Assembly: GCA_036971615.1 (NCBI GenBank)
Contig: JAYKKR010000006.1
Coordinates: 1,674,001-1,738,000 of the forward strand
From: Amyloporia xantha
Lineage: Eukaryota > Basidiomycota > Agaricomycetes > Polyporales > Adustoporiaceae
Length of the DNA: 64,000 bases
Direction of reading: 5' to 3'
Shown here: in pieces, positions 45,002 to 53,182 of the stretch
Numbering within the stretch: position 1 is the stretch's first letter
Layout of the letters: the number at the start of each line of letters is the position of its first letter
Position numbers and translations under genes: made by a program
The notes under the pieces: model-generated
What the model was told of the DNA's origin: nothing
What the model saw: the letters and a program-made list of their open reading frames with translations, nothing else
Database searches by the model: none

Positions 45002-46558
45002 ATGTCCGTCGCACCTGCTAACATTATTCGTGAAAGGTGAGACTTATGCATTTCTTTCAGCGACCGGAGGATTGGTTTCAATGCGGGATTTGATTTTGCT
45101 CCAGCCGTCTCGGAAATTGCTTTTATTTTGGGGCCACAGGTCTGACGCAGTTATGCATTTGCTTAGCTGCATGTACTGAATTCCCTTTAAGCTCTGTGCT
45201 GCTACGATCATTGCTTAAACTTTGATCGTGAAGTTCGATTCATCTGGCGAGGCAGGCTGTCTTTCGGCAGTATATTGTTCTATTGCTTTCGTTATGTCGC
45301 GCTCCTCAACACAATTCCTGTCATATTGGCTTATGGTCAATGGCCTGGCTGGCAATCCACAGAGGTCAGTCTCTCCTTTCTTCGTTCCTATGAAGTATTC
45401 AAATCCCCATTTTTGCCAGAGGTCAGAATTTGGTTTGATGTGACGCATATGTCCAGTTAACATTGCTACAGCTGTATAGCTGTCATCATATTACAGATGG
45501 TTGGTGACATTTTGATTCTAACGAGCGCTGCAGGTAAGTTAACAGTCATTTATGTATCATCATAGAGCATTGTGATACCTACGAAGCAGTTTTTACAGCG
45601 GTGCGGGTCTACGCTATATCTGATTCGAGCAAGTGGCTCTTCGGGTTAGTGTTGGTGCTGGGATTGATCAATCCAGTTGTATCTATTGTGAGCCCAACTT
45701 TCTCGTGAAAACGAATTTCGTGATCATGCTCAACTTTTCGTATAGTATACATTCGTTCAATCTTCCCCTATTCTTGCTGTTATCCCTCGGGCGTATCAGG
45801 CCTGCATTATTACTGCCACCTTCACCACGAGCAGGTACAACGAATGAAATTACTTTCTGAGAATGTATTACTGAGCAGCTTTCTCCGTAGCTGTGAGTTA
45901 CGCCATCCTCATACGGCTAGATTTATTTAGATGCGATGCTTATTAGGGATTACTGCTGCGAGACTGTCGTCCTTGGTTACCGACGGCGTCGTTACAATTG
46001 TAACCTGGTCCAAGACGAGGCATATCGGTCCATGTAATGATCCTTATTCGAGATCGTCTATGCAGGCCATTCTTATGAGAGATAGTACGTGTCTTTCCTC
46101 ATATGCGTTTTATACTACTCATAATTTTCGCATTTCGCACGCTCAGCCGTGATATATTTTGGGTAAGTGTGCTAATAACGTGTCATGCATATGCATCAAT
46201 AATGAATGATGAAGGCTCCTCCTGATTGTTAACGTGCTTGGAGTAGCAATGGAGCATCTTGCGGCAAGTGTCTGCGTATACAACGAGGAAGATGGCTTAT
46301 GCTAATCCATCATCCGTGTATATAGTTCATTGACGCTGTCTCGACATGGATAGCAATGTGAGTCGCATTCAATTCGAGACAGTGCTTCGTCTCACTCAAC
46401 ATGCCACTGATAGACTTACGTCTGTCCTCCTCTCACGCCTGATGCTGGACCTTCGGGAACACACTAAGCGAGCTGGAGAAACCGAAATTTCTCAATATAT
46501 GAGTACAGACGTTTTTATTACAGAAGGTGGAAACCAAGGCGACGAAGACCTAGAATAG
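45002..46558 (+). CDS. DUF6533-type multipass membrane protein, copy 1
   Basis: First of three tandem paralogs of the Agaricomycete DUF6533 family (seven-helix-like membrane proteins of unknown role). Exons: 45002-45036, 45105-45139, 45192-45364, 45420-45421, 45472-45533, 45590-45687, 45746-45834, 45891-45892, 45947-46084, 46147-46162, 46215-46275, 46326-46357 and 46414-46558. They sum to 296 codons (295 residues) without a stop. The signature is CYDHCLNFDREVRFIWRGRL, then a conserved Ser-Cys, LRVYA-like VRVYAISDSSKW, LVTDGVVTIVTWSKT and LTSVLLSRLMLDLRE. Two exons are only 2 nt long and one 16 nt. The first intron is GT-AG, unlike copies 2 and 3. It is the most diverged copy but fully open. 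Confidence 0.85.
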
Positions 46559-47962
46559 TCCCGAAGCCCCGCCCCCGCGGTATAATAGGTTGAAGCCAAG
46601 CACCCGTGAGCCCCCACAGACATTCTGTGTAATTGAAACCATATAAATTATTATAAATTATGTACTCTGTCCTTCTCGAGAAAGCGAATTGGGGGATTTT
46701 GAACCCAAAAAAGTAAAGCGTGATCCTAGTATCCGGCATACGCTGACTTTCCCAGAGCATTATGTTGGATTTCTTCTTTGATGTCCACCTACAGCGGACA
46801 CAGCACGACCACTTGCGCCTTAGCTGAGATGATTTACTTACCTCCGTCCCCGACTCATTACATCAGATTGAGGGTGAGTACATCTCTAAGATTTGAGTCT
46901 ACGCGATGTTATTAATCGTTGATTTACAGTACTGGGGCATTCAAGTTATATACAGTCACTGTGGGCTATTGGACTGGCAGAGGTCTTGCCTAGGTTACGA
47001 AAGCTTATCTCTTTTTAAGCAGGACTGTCGAGATGTTGACTTTTCTGGCTATCTTCAATAGGGAATGAGCGTACATGCTCTTGCAGAGCGTTAAGTCATC
47101 ATTGACGAAGCGGAACGTCGACGGTTTATGTGATCAACATTGCACCGCGGCGGACAGCTGTTGGAATCTTCGCGTGCACCATGGTACATTGATCGCGGTG
47201 CTACCGTTATGAGAATGTTAACCACAGCATCTCGGAAAATTTGCTGTATCCATGGTATCTTGTGACATCTATGTCCGCTGTCTTGGGGAAGCATTGATCA
47301 CGTCTAATTATCGAGTTATTGCGTAAACCCGAGGTGTCGACAAGGCCTGCTCTCTTGAACGCTGCCTAGACCTGGTCGACACAGCACTTCAAAACAAACT
47401 GATGTAATTGCTGTCATTAATATAACGCTTCATAATGGTATGCAGTTCGCGACTCTATCCAGGAATGCTTGATTGATCAAAGCGTTCAGGTAGTTTCCCA
47501 CGATTGATACAAATCGTGTATGCTATGCTACGCATTGGCGTCCAACATCAAGATGAACTGCTGATTATGATCACGCACTTTCTCACGTCTCCACGTCTAA
47601 CACCCATATCTTACCAGCGTAAATAACAGCCCGTCCACAACCCTAGGTGAGTGCAGAGTGGGACAACAGGCATCACATTGCCGTCGAGTAGTCCAGGAAA
47701 CGCACTGGCTGCCCAGCGATACGGTGCGCCTGTTGTGATGCAACTGCCCCTGTATCATGAACTTAAACGTTACAGATAGATGGTATATAAAGAGCTTCTG
47801 CGCAGGTATCTTGATCACCCAACGGTTGTCGTGACCGCGAGAAGTCTCCAAGGAATCGCAGGGGTTTCATTGTACTTGTTGCGTATAAAGTCTGGGAATG
47901 GCGCAGACTCTGTGTCCAGACTAGGTACTCAATCGCAAATCGGACACAAAACAGCTTACAGA
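46559..47962. other. Spacer between DUF6533 copies 1 and 2
   Basis: 1.4 kb without a recognised gene. A TATA box (47784-47791) precedes copy 2. Minus frames at 46518-46760 and 47597-47851 have no motif. Confidence 0.45.
47784..47791 (+). promoter_or_regulatory. TATA box of DUF6533 copy 2
   Basis: TATATAAA in the context GGTATATAAAGAGC, about 175 bases before the ATG at 47963. The same 14-base context surrounds the TATA box at 6832. Confidence 0.5.
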
Positions 47963-49576
47963 ATGGATCAGTCGAGCTCACAGGAGCGCACCAACAGGCG
48001 AGTGAAGGCTAATTGTTTGTTATGCACAAGGCTGACTCGGAGCCGTTCAGCAGGTTCCTCCAAATCTACCTAACCTTCGAGAATTACATGTACTTCTCGG
48101 TCACAAGTCAGACTTCCGCGGTTAATCCATATTCTAGTCTGTACTGAATTGATATTCATAGCGTTGTGCTGTTATGATTACTGCCTAAATCTTCATCGTG
48201 AAATTGCGCTCATTTGGAAGGGCGAACTTTCAACTACTATTATCGTGTTTTATATGATCAGATATCCAGCATTACTGAACCTCATTGTTGAATTACTCGC
48301 GCGGATATCTTGGCCAAGTTGGCAATCCAATGAGGTGAGTACATCTATATTACTACTAAACATACAGCTGACGTCGATACAGAGGTGCTGTATATGTGTA
48401 CTGCATCAACCCGTCTTCTGCGGCTGATTTTACAGCTAGTTGTGGTGTAGTTTTGAGAGTTCAAATGGTCCTGGATCTCCTGGTTCTCTTTAATGCAGCC
48501 AGTGAGTTTCCCTTCTGCTAGATGTCGTCCGTTCCGTATCGAATATTATCCCCCACAGTCTTTGCAGCACTGCGTGTATATGCTGTCTTTGGACGTAACT
48601 GGTGGCTTTTCATGATCACCTTGCTGTCAGGTCTTGTCAATCCCATTATATCAATTGTACGTTTGTCGTTACTTGAAGTAAAAACATCATTCAGCAGAGC
48701 TTGCAGTATCTTTTCACAAGAACCTCGCCAAAGATCCATGCTGTGCAACAGTTTCAGGATTGCGACGCAACAATCATAGGGCAACGCTCTAGCTATGAAT
48801 AGTGATTATATCGATTCTCATTTGCTCATCTGATATCTCTCACACATTGGAAAATTACAGTTGTACGTGATATCATTATGAAAAGCAAAATACGCGGTGA
48901 TCAAGTGTTATGGACTCTAGGGATGATAGGTGCAAGGGCTGCCTCCTCGTTCTCGGACGGACTGGTTCTATGCCTAACTTGTATGAAGACCTTGCAAATG
49001 ACGAAGAGAATCGACAGTGCCACAAAATCCATCAGCATGATACTGCTGAGAGAAAGTAAGTGTTCATATTGTATCGGGCCCCATGTACGCTCAGCGGTCG
49101 GTGGATGATAGCGGGCATGTATTTCAGGTAAGTCACGGGAAAGCTCGCTTTGAATACTGTCAACTTCGGAAACAGTCTCCTTCTTATCCTCAATTTGGTC
49201 GGAATTGGTACCGGTCGTCTCACTGAGGTGAGGATCAAAGTATTGCTTGAATAGGGCCCTGAGTCACACCGCTATCAAGTTCATCGAAATTTTCATCGCT
49301 TGGACTACAATGTGAGTGAGCCACCTCTTCATCATTTAATACAAAGCAAATTGTTGCCTTCGCAGCCTCACCTCAGTGCTAGTGTCGCGTTTCATACTGA
49401 ATTTGCGCGAAATCAAAATTCAGGAACAAGAATTGACGTACCTCAGCACAAGTCTCACGACCGACGTTCTGTCCATGAGCGTTTCAGACGTCCTGGATAG
49501 CGCTGCACAGCTTGAGGAGGCGCTAGGAGAAGCGTATCTTCGGCGTACAGATCTGTATGATGTTGACTCCGCATGA
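47963..49576 (+). CDS. DUF6533-type multipass membrane protein, copy 2
   Basis: Exons: 47963-47997, 48054-48106, 48162-48334, 48383-48384, 48440-48501, 48559-48656, 48707-48801, 48861-48862, 48921-49055, 49112-49127, 49176-49227, 49280-49311 and 49366-49576; total 322 codons (321 residues). Landmarks are CCYDYCLNLHREIALIW (residues 32-48), Ser88-Cys89, LRVYAVFGRNWW (113-124), a probable outer loop 142-172, RAASSFSDGLVLCLTCMKT, LLLILNLVGIG and SVLVSRFILNLREI, then a soluble tail of about 50 residues. The 2-nt exons supply two bases of the codons for Ser88 and Tyr173/Trp174. The first intron (47998-48053) uses a GC donor (GCGAGT). Without the second 2-nt exon the frame stops at a TAG at 48800. 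The function of the family is unknown; the fold suggests a receptor or channel-like membrane protein. Confidence 0.88.
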
Positions 49577-51552
49577 AGAAATTTTTGATGAGAGGGTGAA
49601 CTGGTTTTACTACACTTGTATAACTGGAAGTTTGTGCGTTTCGAGGTCTAATTCTCCTATAGTCATGACGGTTATGCAGGCTGCAGTTATAAGTATGGAT
49701 ATTTGACTCAACGTACATGCAGTTGGGAATTCGGATGTTTTCCCCTTCCAGAGGATCGGAGGGCACATTTGCCAATCTCGGTGCCATCATGCATCTGTTC
49801 TTTCATTATTAGGTGCCAAATTCCCGCAAAGAAATGTTCAAAGACCCACGCAGATGCAATCGTTCGATGAAGGAATGAATTTGACCGAGACTTCTTGCGA
49901 TAATCAACTAGACTAGCCTGTCATATTCGTCATAGATGATAGAGAAACGTTACATTCAGCACGAGCACACATCGTATATTATTCCAATTCCGCGGGCAGG
50001 AAGGAGCGGAGTTTTAATGAGAACAAATCTCTTTTCGACATTGTTTTCTGCACCAAAAGGCTCCATTCATTATTTGGTATATACCTCGCCTGCCTTTCCA
50101 GCCAACGAAAAAACGATAGACGTTTCGCACACTATCGAAGATATCTCTCCGGCCGACGGCACACATCCGGCAGACGGGCCAGCAGCCACAGCAGCCACAG
50201 CCCAGCCACAATGAGCCACAATGCTCAGTGGCTGAGCAAACATCACGTGACGGAAACGGACAGAATTTGCTCCGAGAGCCTCGGGCTTACCGTCTGAGGT
50301 ATCGAGTGCGTCATACCCTCACCTCGTCGGCCGCCCTCCTGCCCTAAAAGGCCTAGCTGCCGTGTGGCTGAGAGACATCATTTGACGAAGGGCAAAACGT
50401 CTATCGTTTTTTCGTTGGCTGTCATTGTATCCAGCGCCTTGAATCTCGGCCACACCATCCATGCCACCTCACATGTCACAGCCGAGCAGGCCCCCTACGA
50501 CTGAATATTCAAAATGACTTGACAGATAATGCGGCATAAGCAAGATAAGTACTACAATTGAATTGAATGTTATCCCTATTTCCGCGATGCCTCTGCTTTT
50601 GGGCCTTTCATCAAGTGCAATCCACGCAAGGATACACGCGCGATTTACCGGTTCTTGAAGGAGATCATTCGTGAGATGCATAATGCATTGCAGTCATCGG
50701 CCCTCTGCAGTCCCTCGTGTGACGTAAAGCATCTTTGTGCTGGGAATATGGCGTGTATTCGCGCCCAACACTCTGATGAACTGCGATGCCGCCGCGAATG
50801 ATGGGCTGTTCGGTATCTTTTCTCTCTTCTGGACTTTGCTCATGATCCGACGTCATGTTGAGTCCCGGGCAATACGATAATATCGATACGGTTTGGCGTC
50901 CTAAATAAATGGTAAATGCGTTTCTATCCCTTCACAGTATGTAGCGCCAAGCTCTCGAAACCCCTGCATCTTGATACTCGCGTCATGGTGATTCGATGCT
51001 TTCCAGCCGATATCTTCCTATGCCGTCCATGGGGTTGAATTTGGTTCCTTCAGCCGAATTGGTGCTCGAAGGACTACGCCTGAGTACCCTATTGACCAGA
51101 GCGTTCCGATGTTTTCATGCGATGAGCAGTGACCTCCTATGACACGGCGTCCGATGTCGTGATGCAACGTTTATTTTTCCATGTTGGCCGTCACTTTCGG
51201 ATGCATATTCTTGGGATTTTGATGACCTAGCCTTAACTTGAATGAAATTCAACCCGAATTAGCGATACAATGCCCTGCCTTAGTACAATGGGTGCCGCTG
51301 GCACGGTCTCACCCACGGATGTATTCTGATGCTGTTCACCGGCTGTGATGTGTTCCGGCTGCACGATGAACTCAAACATCGCAGATCAATCACGTCTCCT
51401 CTATTTAATGGCGTCGTGGTGTCGAAGTCTCTTCGGAGAAGACCAGTCTTTTCGATCGTAGTGTATACGAAGGTAGGAAATTCATCGATCCTGTGTTCTG
51501 ACAGTTCAGCCTGGCAGGGACCTAGCGTACTCGACTAAAAACAACTTACCAA
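49577..51552. other. Spacer between DUF6533 copies 2 and 3, with one MITE-like element
   Basis: 2 kb without a recognised gene. It holds the inverted-repeat element at 50099-50421. The rest is AT-rich, with frames that lack motifs. Confidence 0.45.
50099..50421. mobile_element. MITE-like inverted-repeat element
   Basis: 323-bp segment whose ends are inverted repeats beginning CAGCCAACG; the first 27 bases are identical and 29 of 30 match. The interior is short, has no transposase and includes a run of GCCACA-type words (about 50185-50225) and a small inner palindrome (CTCAGTGGCTGAG). A target duplication beyond a possible TC dinucleotide on both sides is not visible, so the superfamily is open. 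Confidence 0.65.
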
Positions 51553-53182
51553 ATGAATGCGCAGGAGGCTGTCAGGCAAGTCAATGATCGTTCTTAAACA
51601 TAATTTACCACTGAGCTTTTGGGCAGACTATATCTAACCTTCGAGAACTACATGTACTTCTCCGTTACAGGTTAGCGCGGTCCGTGGTTTAAAGCTCAAG
51701 CGTGAACTAAAGAAATCTACAGCACTATACTCTTACGATTACTGCCTGAATTTTGCTCGTGAAATTGAGCTGATGTGGAAAGCCGAGCTTTCAATCACCA
51801 CAGCCCTGTTCTACATCATTAGATACCCTGCCTTACTCAACTTGATCATCGAAGTGCTAACACGGACGTCGTGGCCAAGTTGGCAGTCCAAACAGGTGAA
51901 TATCTTCGTGTTACCTAGGTGCTCTGTAGCTGATGTCAGTAAATAGAGGTTAGATCGCCCTTGTTTCTCTTTTCTTCAATTGTCACTAAATTTGCATCTG
52001 TGCTATTCGTTACTAGTTGTGGTGTGGTCCTCAGAGTTCAGATGGCCCTGGACCTCGTAGTCCTGCTCAGCGCAGCTGGTTCGGTGCCATATAACTTGTA
52101 TGTCTACCATATACTGACCGGCATGCCTCCAGTCTTTGCTGCCATACGAGTCTTTGCTATCTTTGGACGAAGCTGGTGGTTGTTCATGTTCACCCTCTTA
52201 TCGGGTCTAGTCAATCCCTCTATATCCGTCGTACGTCGGTCATTCAAAGCTAAAGCCGTTCTTTCATTGTAACGATTCTAGTATATTTTCACCAGATCTT
52301 CCCCGAGCCTTGATAGCGTGATAACTTTTCAAACTTGCGCTACAGCAATTATAGGAAGTAGGTCTGGCTACGAAAGGTGATTCAATTCGATCACTTGTGT
52401 ACACTATACTTCCTGCTGAGCATCATGTGTATAGTTGTACGTGATACTACTGCTTCTCCGAAGCGGATTCGTCCCGTTCGGGGCTGCTGTTTATCCTATA
52501 TTTTAGGGATGATGAGCGCTCGGGCCGCTTCCTCGTTCTCTGACGGACTAGTTCTTTGTCTTACGTGTGTGAAGACATTGAAGATGACACAGAGAACTAG
52601 TCATGCCTTCAGTTCCCAAATACCCCTCAAGACGGTCTTGTTGAGGGACAGTGAGTATTGCATGTTATGCCGTACTGTCGGCACGATGCTCACCGGTTTA
52701 TGGGTGACAGCGGCCCTGTACTTCAGGTGAGTCACCACAAAGTCGCGTTTCAAATACTATCAACCCGGTACATAGCATTCTTCTCACTCTCAATGTCATT
52801 GGCATCGGCACTGGTCGCCTAACCGAGGTGAGCATCAACGTATTGCTGTAATGAAGCGCCGCGTCATACTCTGATCAAGTTCATCGAAGTATGGACTACT
52901 TGGACGACAATGTGAGCGAGTCAGTCGTTCTTACATTTCATCAATGTAATTGCGTTAATTCTTCGCAGCCTCACTTCTATGCTTGTATCACGCTTGATCA
53001 TGAACGTGCGCGAAATCAAAGTGCGGGAGCAAGAAGCAACGATTTCGAGCGCATCCCTTATGACGGGTGACGTCCCGTCCATAAGCGTTGCAGGTGTTTT
53101 GGACAGTGCAGCAGAACTTGAGGACACGCTAGACGAAGCATACGCTCTGCGCACAATCCTCAGTGATGCTGTTTCCATATAA
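51553..53182 (+). CDS. DUF6533-type multipass membrane protein, copy 3
   Basis: Exons: 51553-51575, 51627-51670, 51723-51895, 51947-51948, 52017-52078, 52133-52230, 52282-52376, 52435-52436, 52507-52650, 52711-52726, 52776-52827, 52880-52911 and 52969-53182; total 319 codons (318 residues). Seven interior exons have exactly the lengths found in copy 2 (173, 2, 62, 98, 95, 2, 16 nt) and so do the next 52- and 32-nt exons. Landmarks are SYDYCLNFAREIELMW, Ser-Cys, IRVFAIFGRSWWLF, RAASSFSDGLVLCLTCVKT and SMLVSRLIMNVREI. The first intron (51576-51626) again has a GC donor (GCAAGT). It is closest to copy 2 and probably the product of a later duplication. Confidence 0.88.

Follow-up and report, generated by a model that had tools for sequence, protein, structure and literature searches.

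A conserved pair of putative 2-nt coding exons in the DUF6533 genes of the basidiomycete Amyloporia xantha

Introduction

An exon of one or two nucleotides is far shorter than the stretch that U2AF and U1 cover at its ends, and its recognition is therefore a puzzle. Exons of a single nucleotide are known in plants and in Fusarium, and the cases of 1–2 nt that we found in print concern single genes or one orthologue group. According to the accessible part of the report, the single-nucleotide exon of CYP621A in Fusarium was described from 20 orthologues (24 sequences in its discussion) with RNA reads, and its two short flanking introns are given as 139 nt where the median F. graminearum intron is 56 nt; the same source gives an 8-nt exon of a Phanerochaete P450 gene as an example (PMC12940212). 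In plants, the gene VPS55 has a 1-nt exon, and some species also have transcripts without it; the string '2-nt' is absent from the accessible text of that paper (PMC8831610).

The DUF6533 family has been described as basidiomycete-specific. Its member SNB1 (Snowball) of Coprinopsis cinerea is a membrane protein with seven predicted helices that is required for fruiting-body patterning; the available portion of that paper does not discuss small exons ('intron' does not occur, 'exon' occurs twice) (PMC10949477). Among titles and the opening lines of abstracts in the open literature, a scope outside which most subscription papers lie, we found no 2-nt exon in the DUF6533 family, nor did the open literature yield a conserved pair of 2-nt exons running through a large family. 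Here, we analyze three tandem DUF6533 genes in a 64,000-nt stretch of the Amyloporia xantha genome (hereafter, the window), together with their relatives in the same genome.

Results

The exons of the three window genes were rebuilt both manually and with a profile-based spliced aligner (Table 1). Each gene has 12 introns, 11 of which share their aligned position and phase in all copies; the first intron lies in the variable N-terminus, and its phase is common to all three. With both microexons included, the coding sequences contain no inner stops. The first-pass annotation had summed them to 888, 966, and 957 nt; the lengths of copies 2 and 3 were recovered exactly, but that of copy 1 was not reproduced, our first model giving 867 nt and the use of a better acceptor, ending at 45589, giving 876 nt. 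The proteins are identical at 209/314 positions between copies 2 and 3, 118/289 between copies 1 and 3, and 122/289 between copies 1 and 2. All three exceed the Pfam PF20151 (DUF6533) gathering cut-off of 24.1 bits (54.3, 38.6, and 41.7 bits for copies 1, 2, and 3), and the Pfam model spans only 46 residues, all ahead of microexon 1. A crude hydropathy scan over 19-residue segments yielded no clear number of transmembrane helices.

Table 1. Features of the three tandem DUF6533 genes (window coordinates).
Feature	Positions	Strand	Remarks
DUF6533 gene copy 1	45002..46558	+	13 exons, two of them 2-nt; 876 nt coding in the rebuilt model
Microexon 1, copy 1	45420..45421	+	AG; phase 0 in, phase 2 out; Ser codon ahead of conserved Cys
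Microexon 2, copy 1	45891..45892	+	CT; phase 2 in, phase 1 out; 14-nt rival exon 45879-45892 possible taking copy 1 alone
16-nt exon, copy 1	46147..46162	+	conserved 215/220 intron pair
DUF6533 gene copy 2	47963..49576	+	13 exons; 966 nt coding
Microexon 1, copy 2	48383..48384	+	AG
Microexon 2, copy 2	48861..48862	+	TT
16-nt exon, copy 2	49112..49127	+	same 215/220 intron pair
DUF6533 gene copy 3	51553..53182	+	13 exons; 957 nt coding
Microexon 1, copy 3	51947..51948	+	AG
Microexon 2, copy 3	52435..52436	+	TT
16-nt exon, copy 3	52711..52726	+	same 215/220 intron pair

Each copy also holds a third short exon, of 16 nt, whose intron pair (215 phase 1 and 220 phase 2) was called in most paralogs. 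GC-AG introns occur at 47998 (GCGAGT), 51576 (GCAAGT), and 46264 (GCAAGT). Between copies 2 and 3, positions 50099-50421 carry a small, MITE-like inverted repeat of 30 nt, with arms that are 97% complementary and 263 nt apart.

The coordinates, letters, and flanks of the six 2-nt exons all agree with the first-pass annotation, as do the GT-AG introns of 48–70 nt around each of them. In copies 1, 2, and 3, the introns on either side of the microexon measure 55/50, 48/55, and 51/68 nt at site 1 and 56/54, 59/58, and 58/70 nt at site 2. Skipping any one microexon leads to an early stop in all three genes at both sites, with the stop codon at 93 or 195 in copy 1, 105 or 173 in copy 2, and 144 or 178 in copy 3. 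The frame had been thought to break in copies 1 and 3 at both sites and in copy 2 at the second only; the breaks named are there, but direct joining breaks copy 2 at site 1 as well, and it is the retention of the first (48-nt) of the two introns there that leaves the frame open (locus L026). At site 2 of copy 1, the rival in-frame reading consists of a 44-nt intron (45835-45878) followed by the 14-nt exon of Table 1; this reading or a near variant was favoured by the spliced aligner in two runs, and the site is ambiguous by itself.

Could the pattern have arisen by chance? Its conservation in the three diverged copies had been taken to argue against this, and we extended the argument to the family with tests of motif, spacing, and alignment, each set against controls. 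The genome (46.8 Mb, 60 contigs) contains at least 126 DUF6533 (PF20151) matches, of which 69 loci of this one genome were surveyed, namely the three window copies and 66 others. These loci form 40 groups at <50% identity, and the locus counts are not independent events because the paralogs are related. Three pairs of matches have the same score (C41:58613/C50:98614, C12:185096/C12:52184, and C22:232451/C22:267851), which suggests that they are recent duplicates or haplotypes left unmerged by the assembly.

In the motif test, AG-NN-GT was sought 44–80 nt upstream of the acceptor of exon 4 (site 1) or exon 7 (site 2), without use of the microexon itself. Once loci lacking an anchor (6/69 and 5/69) were dropped, the motif stood one intron length before the following exon in 62/63 loci at site 1 and 62/64 at site 2, compared with 28/305 other acceptors (five per gene, same genes) and 322/2495 random AGs. 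The anchors were picked by the analyst, and a first site-2 anchor, which failed (6/69 loci), was replaced by another. The single exception at site 1, L047, reads AG/AG/GCGAGC, with a GC donor; those at site 2 are L016, which is misanchored and read as TC by the aligner, and L071, with an 8-nt exon.

The spacing test covered 67 loci and counted, in merged intron regions set by the aligner, every AG-N{k}-GT with an intron of 40–95 nt on either side; it omitted the broken-looking L041, loci where the aligner called no intron close by (7 and 5 for sites 1 and 2, including L041), and merged regions outside 90–150 nt (4 and 4). The counts peak at k=2, with 55 of 56 genes at site 1 and 56 of 58 at site 2, while shuffled interiors gave means of 5.8 and 5.3 and maxima of 11 and 13 in 200 shuffles. 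Site 2 also rises at k=6 (29/58), as expected from GTNNGT donors.

Furthermore, when the profile was neutralised at the three codon columns of the microexons and single introns of up to 160 nt were permitted, the aligner called a 2-nt exon in 52/66 loci at site 1 and 48/66 at site 2, as against 12/159 and 8/168 shuffled merged introns; this comparison is not fully blind because the profile was trained on first-pass alignments begun from the window models. L041 was also left out of this test, of the site-1 anchored test, and of the tree. The final aligner run placed a 2-nt exon in 52 loci per site, with both exons in only 41 of the 69 (43 in the union of two runs), a lower yield than that of the anchored motif test. 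An intron-free copy would have confirmed the joined frame; one locus, L100, was considered as such a copy across site 2 and rejected, since the stretch holds AG/AC/GTGATA...ACAG and is better read as another 2-nt exon; L097, which aligns poorly and was not used, may be uninterrupted there. One scan of viral contigs for orthologues gave no match.

These results indicate that the putative pattern is larger than first noted: it is family-wide rather than confined to three genes, and it appears in most of the relatives examined in the same genome. It is this family comparison, and not the frame in three genes, that decides in favour of the candidate 2-nt exons, and we hold with high confidence that they are real at the level of sequence. 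They have what marks a putative coding microexon, being very short, flanked by canonical introns, needed for the frame, and conserved beyond chance.

Microexon 1 is preceded by a phase-0 intron and followed by a phase-2 intron, and its two letters open a codon that is mostly AGC or AGT (Ser). For microexon 2, the preceding intron is in phase 2 and the following one in phase 1; its first letter completes one codon and its second letter begins the next. Among the 55 loci called at site 1 in the union of two runs, the letters are AG in 45, AT, AA, and AC in 2 each, and CC, CT, CG, and GC in 1 each, and the codon is Ser in 42 and Arg in 4, with Ile, Asn, Thr, Pro, Leu, and Ala making up the remainder. 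At site 2 (53 loci), the letters are AT (15), AG (9), CT (8), TT, GT, and AC (5 each), TG and TC (2 each), and AA and GA (1 each), and the second codon is Leu (25), Trp (8), Val (6), Phe (6), or others. The microexon letters thus drift like coding bases, while the flanking AG and GT are constant. Three loci, L071, L073, and L075, have a site-2 exon of 8 nt (AGCTGATC, GGCTGACT, and AGGTTATC, respectively), with two more codons and the same phases; they form one clade with a support of 0.99 in a tree without an outside root.

The earlier statement that microexon 1 supplies two bases of a Ser codon ahead of a conserved Cys holds in the window copies and in most paralogs. In copy 3, this residue is Cys82, whose column is invariant in an alignment of 16 rows; microexon 2 comes 13 residues after the nearly invariant Cys153. 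In L059, L061, L055, L049, and L077, the Cys sits, by eye, before microexon 1. The Cys82/Cys153 pair presumably recalls the TM3-ECL2 disulfide of GPCRs.

The introns flanking both microexons have median lengths of 55–58 nt, like the other introns of the family. A CTRAY branch-like motif occurs at frequencies of 0.50, 0.31, 0.56, and 0.42 in the four flanking introns, compared with 0.14–0.16 in shuffles and 0.32–0.52 in other introns. At site 1, the donor of the intron before the microexon (donor a) is GC in 4/52 loci, and the donor that follows the microexon (donor b) is weak in its intronic part, where GTRNGT or the GC version of it stands in 17%.

The strength of donor b varies with the microexon letters. 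For zero, one, and two letters matching AG, the mean intronic match to RAGT was 3.0 (n=3), 2.57 (n=7), and 1.69 (n=45) at site 1 and 2.9 (n=21), 2.48 (n=23), and 2.0 (n=9) at site 2. The exonic match to AG and the intronic donor match are negatively correlated at both sites (Spearman rho −0.42, n=55, p 0.0015, and −0.53, n=53, p 4e-5), and they stay so in representatives of <50% identity (−0.56, n=33, at site 1 and −0.42, n=28, p 0.026, at site 2), a thinning that removes kinship among loci only in part. By comparison, rho was −0.13 over 406 introns elsewhere, and no significant trade-off appeared at donor a of either site (rho −0.11 and −0.13). The two nucleotides would thus act as the exonic part of a genuine 5′ splice site, and we infer from the trade-off that U1 may pair across the 2-nt exon, with positions −2 and −1 matching AG.

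Discussion

The reading that we prefer, with a probability of roughly 0.92, is that each of these DUF6533 genes has two constitutive 2-nt coding exons that would be spliced in two successive, intron-defined steps. Could the outer exons instead be joined at other splice sites, with a single intron whose donor or acceptor is displaced or with one of the two introns retained, and with no 2-nt exon at all? Frame alone is weak evidence in any one gene because another GT near donor a often keeps it: a GT within 45 nt of that donor does so in 41/55 genes at site 1 and 33/53 at site 2. Retention is locally open for the first intron in 2/55 and 1/53 genes and for the second in 9/55 and 4/53, and copy 1 permits its in-frame 14-nt exon at site 2. 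However, these frame-keeping alternatives vary from gene to gene, whereas almost every anchored locus has AG-NN-GT; among the 54 called cases of exon 4, 52 have a length of 62 nt, and the microexon letters co-vary with the donor. We consider such a use of other splice sites very improbable.

In a recursive-splicing or stwintron reading, the element would be a ratchet point or the junction of nested introns, and the mRNA would retain none of its bases; stwintrons are known in ascomycete fungi, as the accessible part of one paper describes (PMC12403724). The AG/GT of such a zero-length exon is found at site 1 in 46/56 loci, a high count because AG-AG-GT contains AG-GT, but at site 2 in only 18/58. 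Moreover, a stwintron would leave no base between its exons and a ratchet point has zero length, yet none of the three window genes keeps its frame at either site without the two nucleotides. Neither class therefore fits; zero-length use would be excluded by the frame and not by the motif, and we judge it exceedingly unlikely. That the genes are relics, with a pattern merely inherited through copying, might be suggested by the damaged look of some loci (frameshifts were called in L041, L073, and L088). On the other hand, in the 16-row alignment, whose proteins are 24–51% identical to copy 3, columns of E, W, R, C, D, V, F, and L are invariant, and the readings of 32 chosen copies contain no stop, though the aligner penalises stops. 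The chance that these are relics seems to us practically negligible.

How would constitutive 2-nt exons be spliced? With 2 nt separating acceptor a from donor b, spliceosomes could hardly bind the two introns simultaneously. Under intron definition, the two flanking introns would be excised one after another, the first excision joining the 2 nt to one neighbouring exon and the second intron being cut afterwards; introns of ~55 nt would fit such stepwise definition. If the second intron were excised first, the first would have to use the first AG of AGAG. Inclusion would be the default, with skipping leading to an early stop. For the 1-nt exon of APC11, Guo and Liu argue, in the accessible part of their paper, that intron definition with stepwise removal is plausible, and they point to a 9-nt exon of potato at which the second intron is removed before the first (PMC4674806).

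A bolder proposal is that the pair is ancestral to all basidiomycete DUF6533 genes, with hundreds of such exons per genome, and that inclusion serves as a frame gate choosing which receptor-like copy is made. We regard this as unlikely; if true, a message would be aborted unless two delicate splicing steps succeed.

With 55 candidates called at site 1 and 53 at site 2, one genome offers more than 100 candidate 2-nt exons, which would rank with the smallest on record. These differ in letters, donors, and intron lengths, with a trade-off between letters and donor, so that recognition becomes testable with reads and minigenes. The automatic gene models of the family are probably wrong from about residue 80 onward, and this is perhaps why the Pfam DUF6533 model stops before microexon 1.

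The comparison with known systems, drawn from the accessible parts of the cited papers, places these genes as follows. SNB1 and the window proteins have DUF6533 in common, the seven helices being reported for SNB1 only (PMC10949477). Like the Phanerochaete P450 genes, the window genes are basidiomycete genes with very short coding exons and short introns (45–55 bp in Phanerochaete), but the shortest exon listed there is 6 bp and such exons are scattered over families, whereas the DUF6533 genes appear to have one conserved pair (PMC1184071). The 1-nt exons of plant APC11 and VPS55 are likewise conserved, shorter than a codon, and missed by annotation, a miss that is presumed for DUF6533; they are 1 nt long, lie in single genes, and were established with constructs and RNA-seq, whereas the 2-nt exons are predicted from sequence (PMC4674806, PMC8831610). 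In CYP621A, too, a sub-codon exon between two short introns is required for the frame and was found by family comparison. That exon is 1 nt long, occupies one site per gene in one orthologue group, and has RNA reads, while the putative DUF6533 exons, read from DNA, are 2 nt long, occupy two sites, and recur in many paralogs of one genome (PMC12940212).
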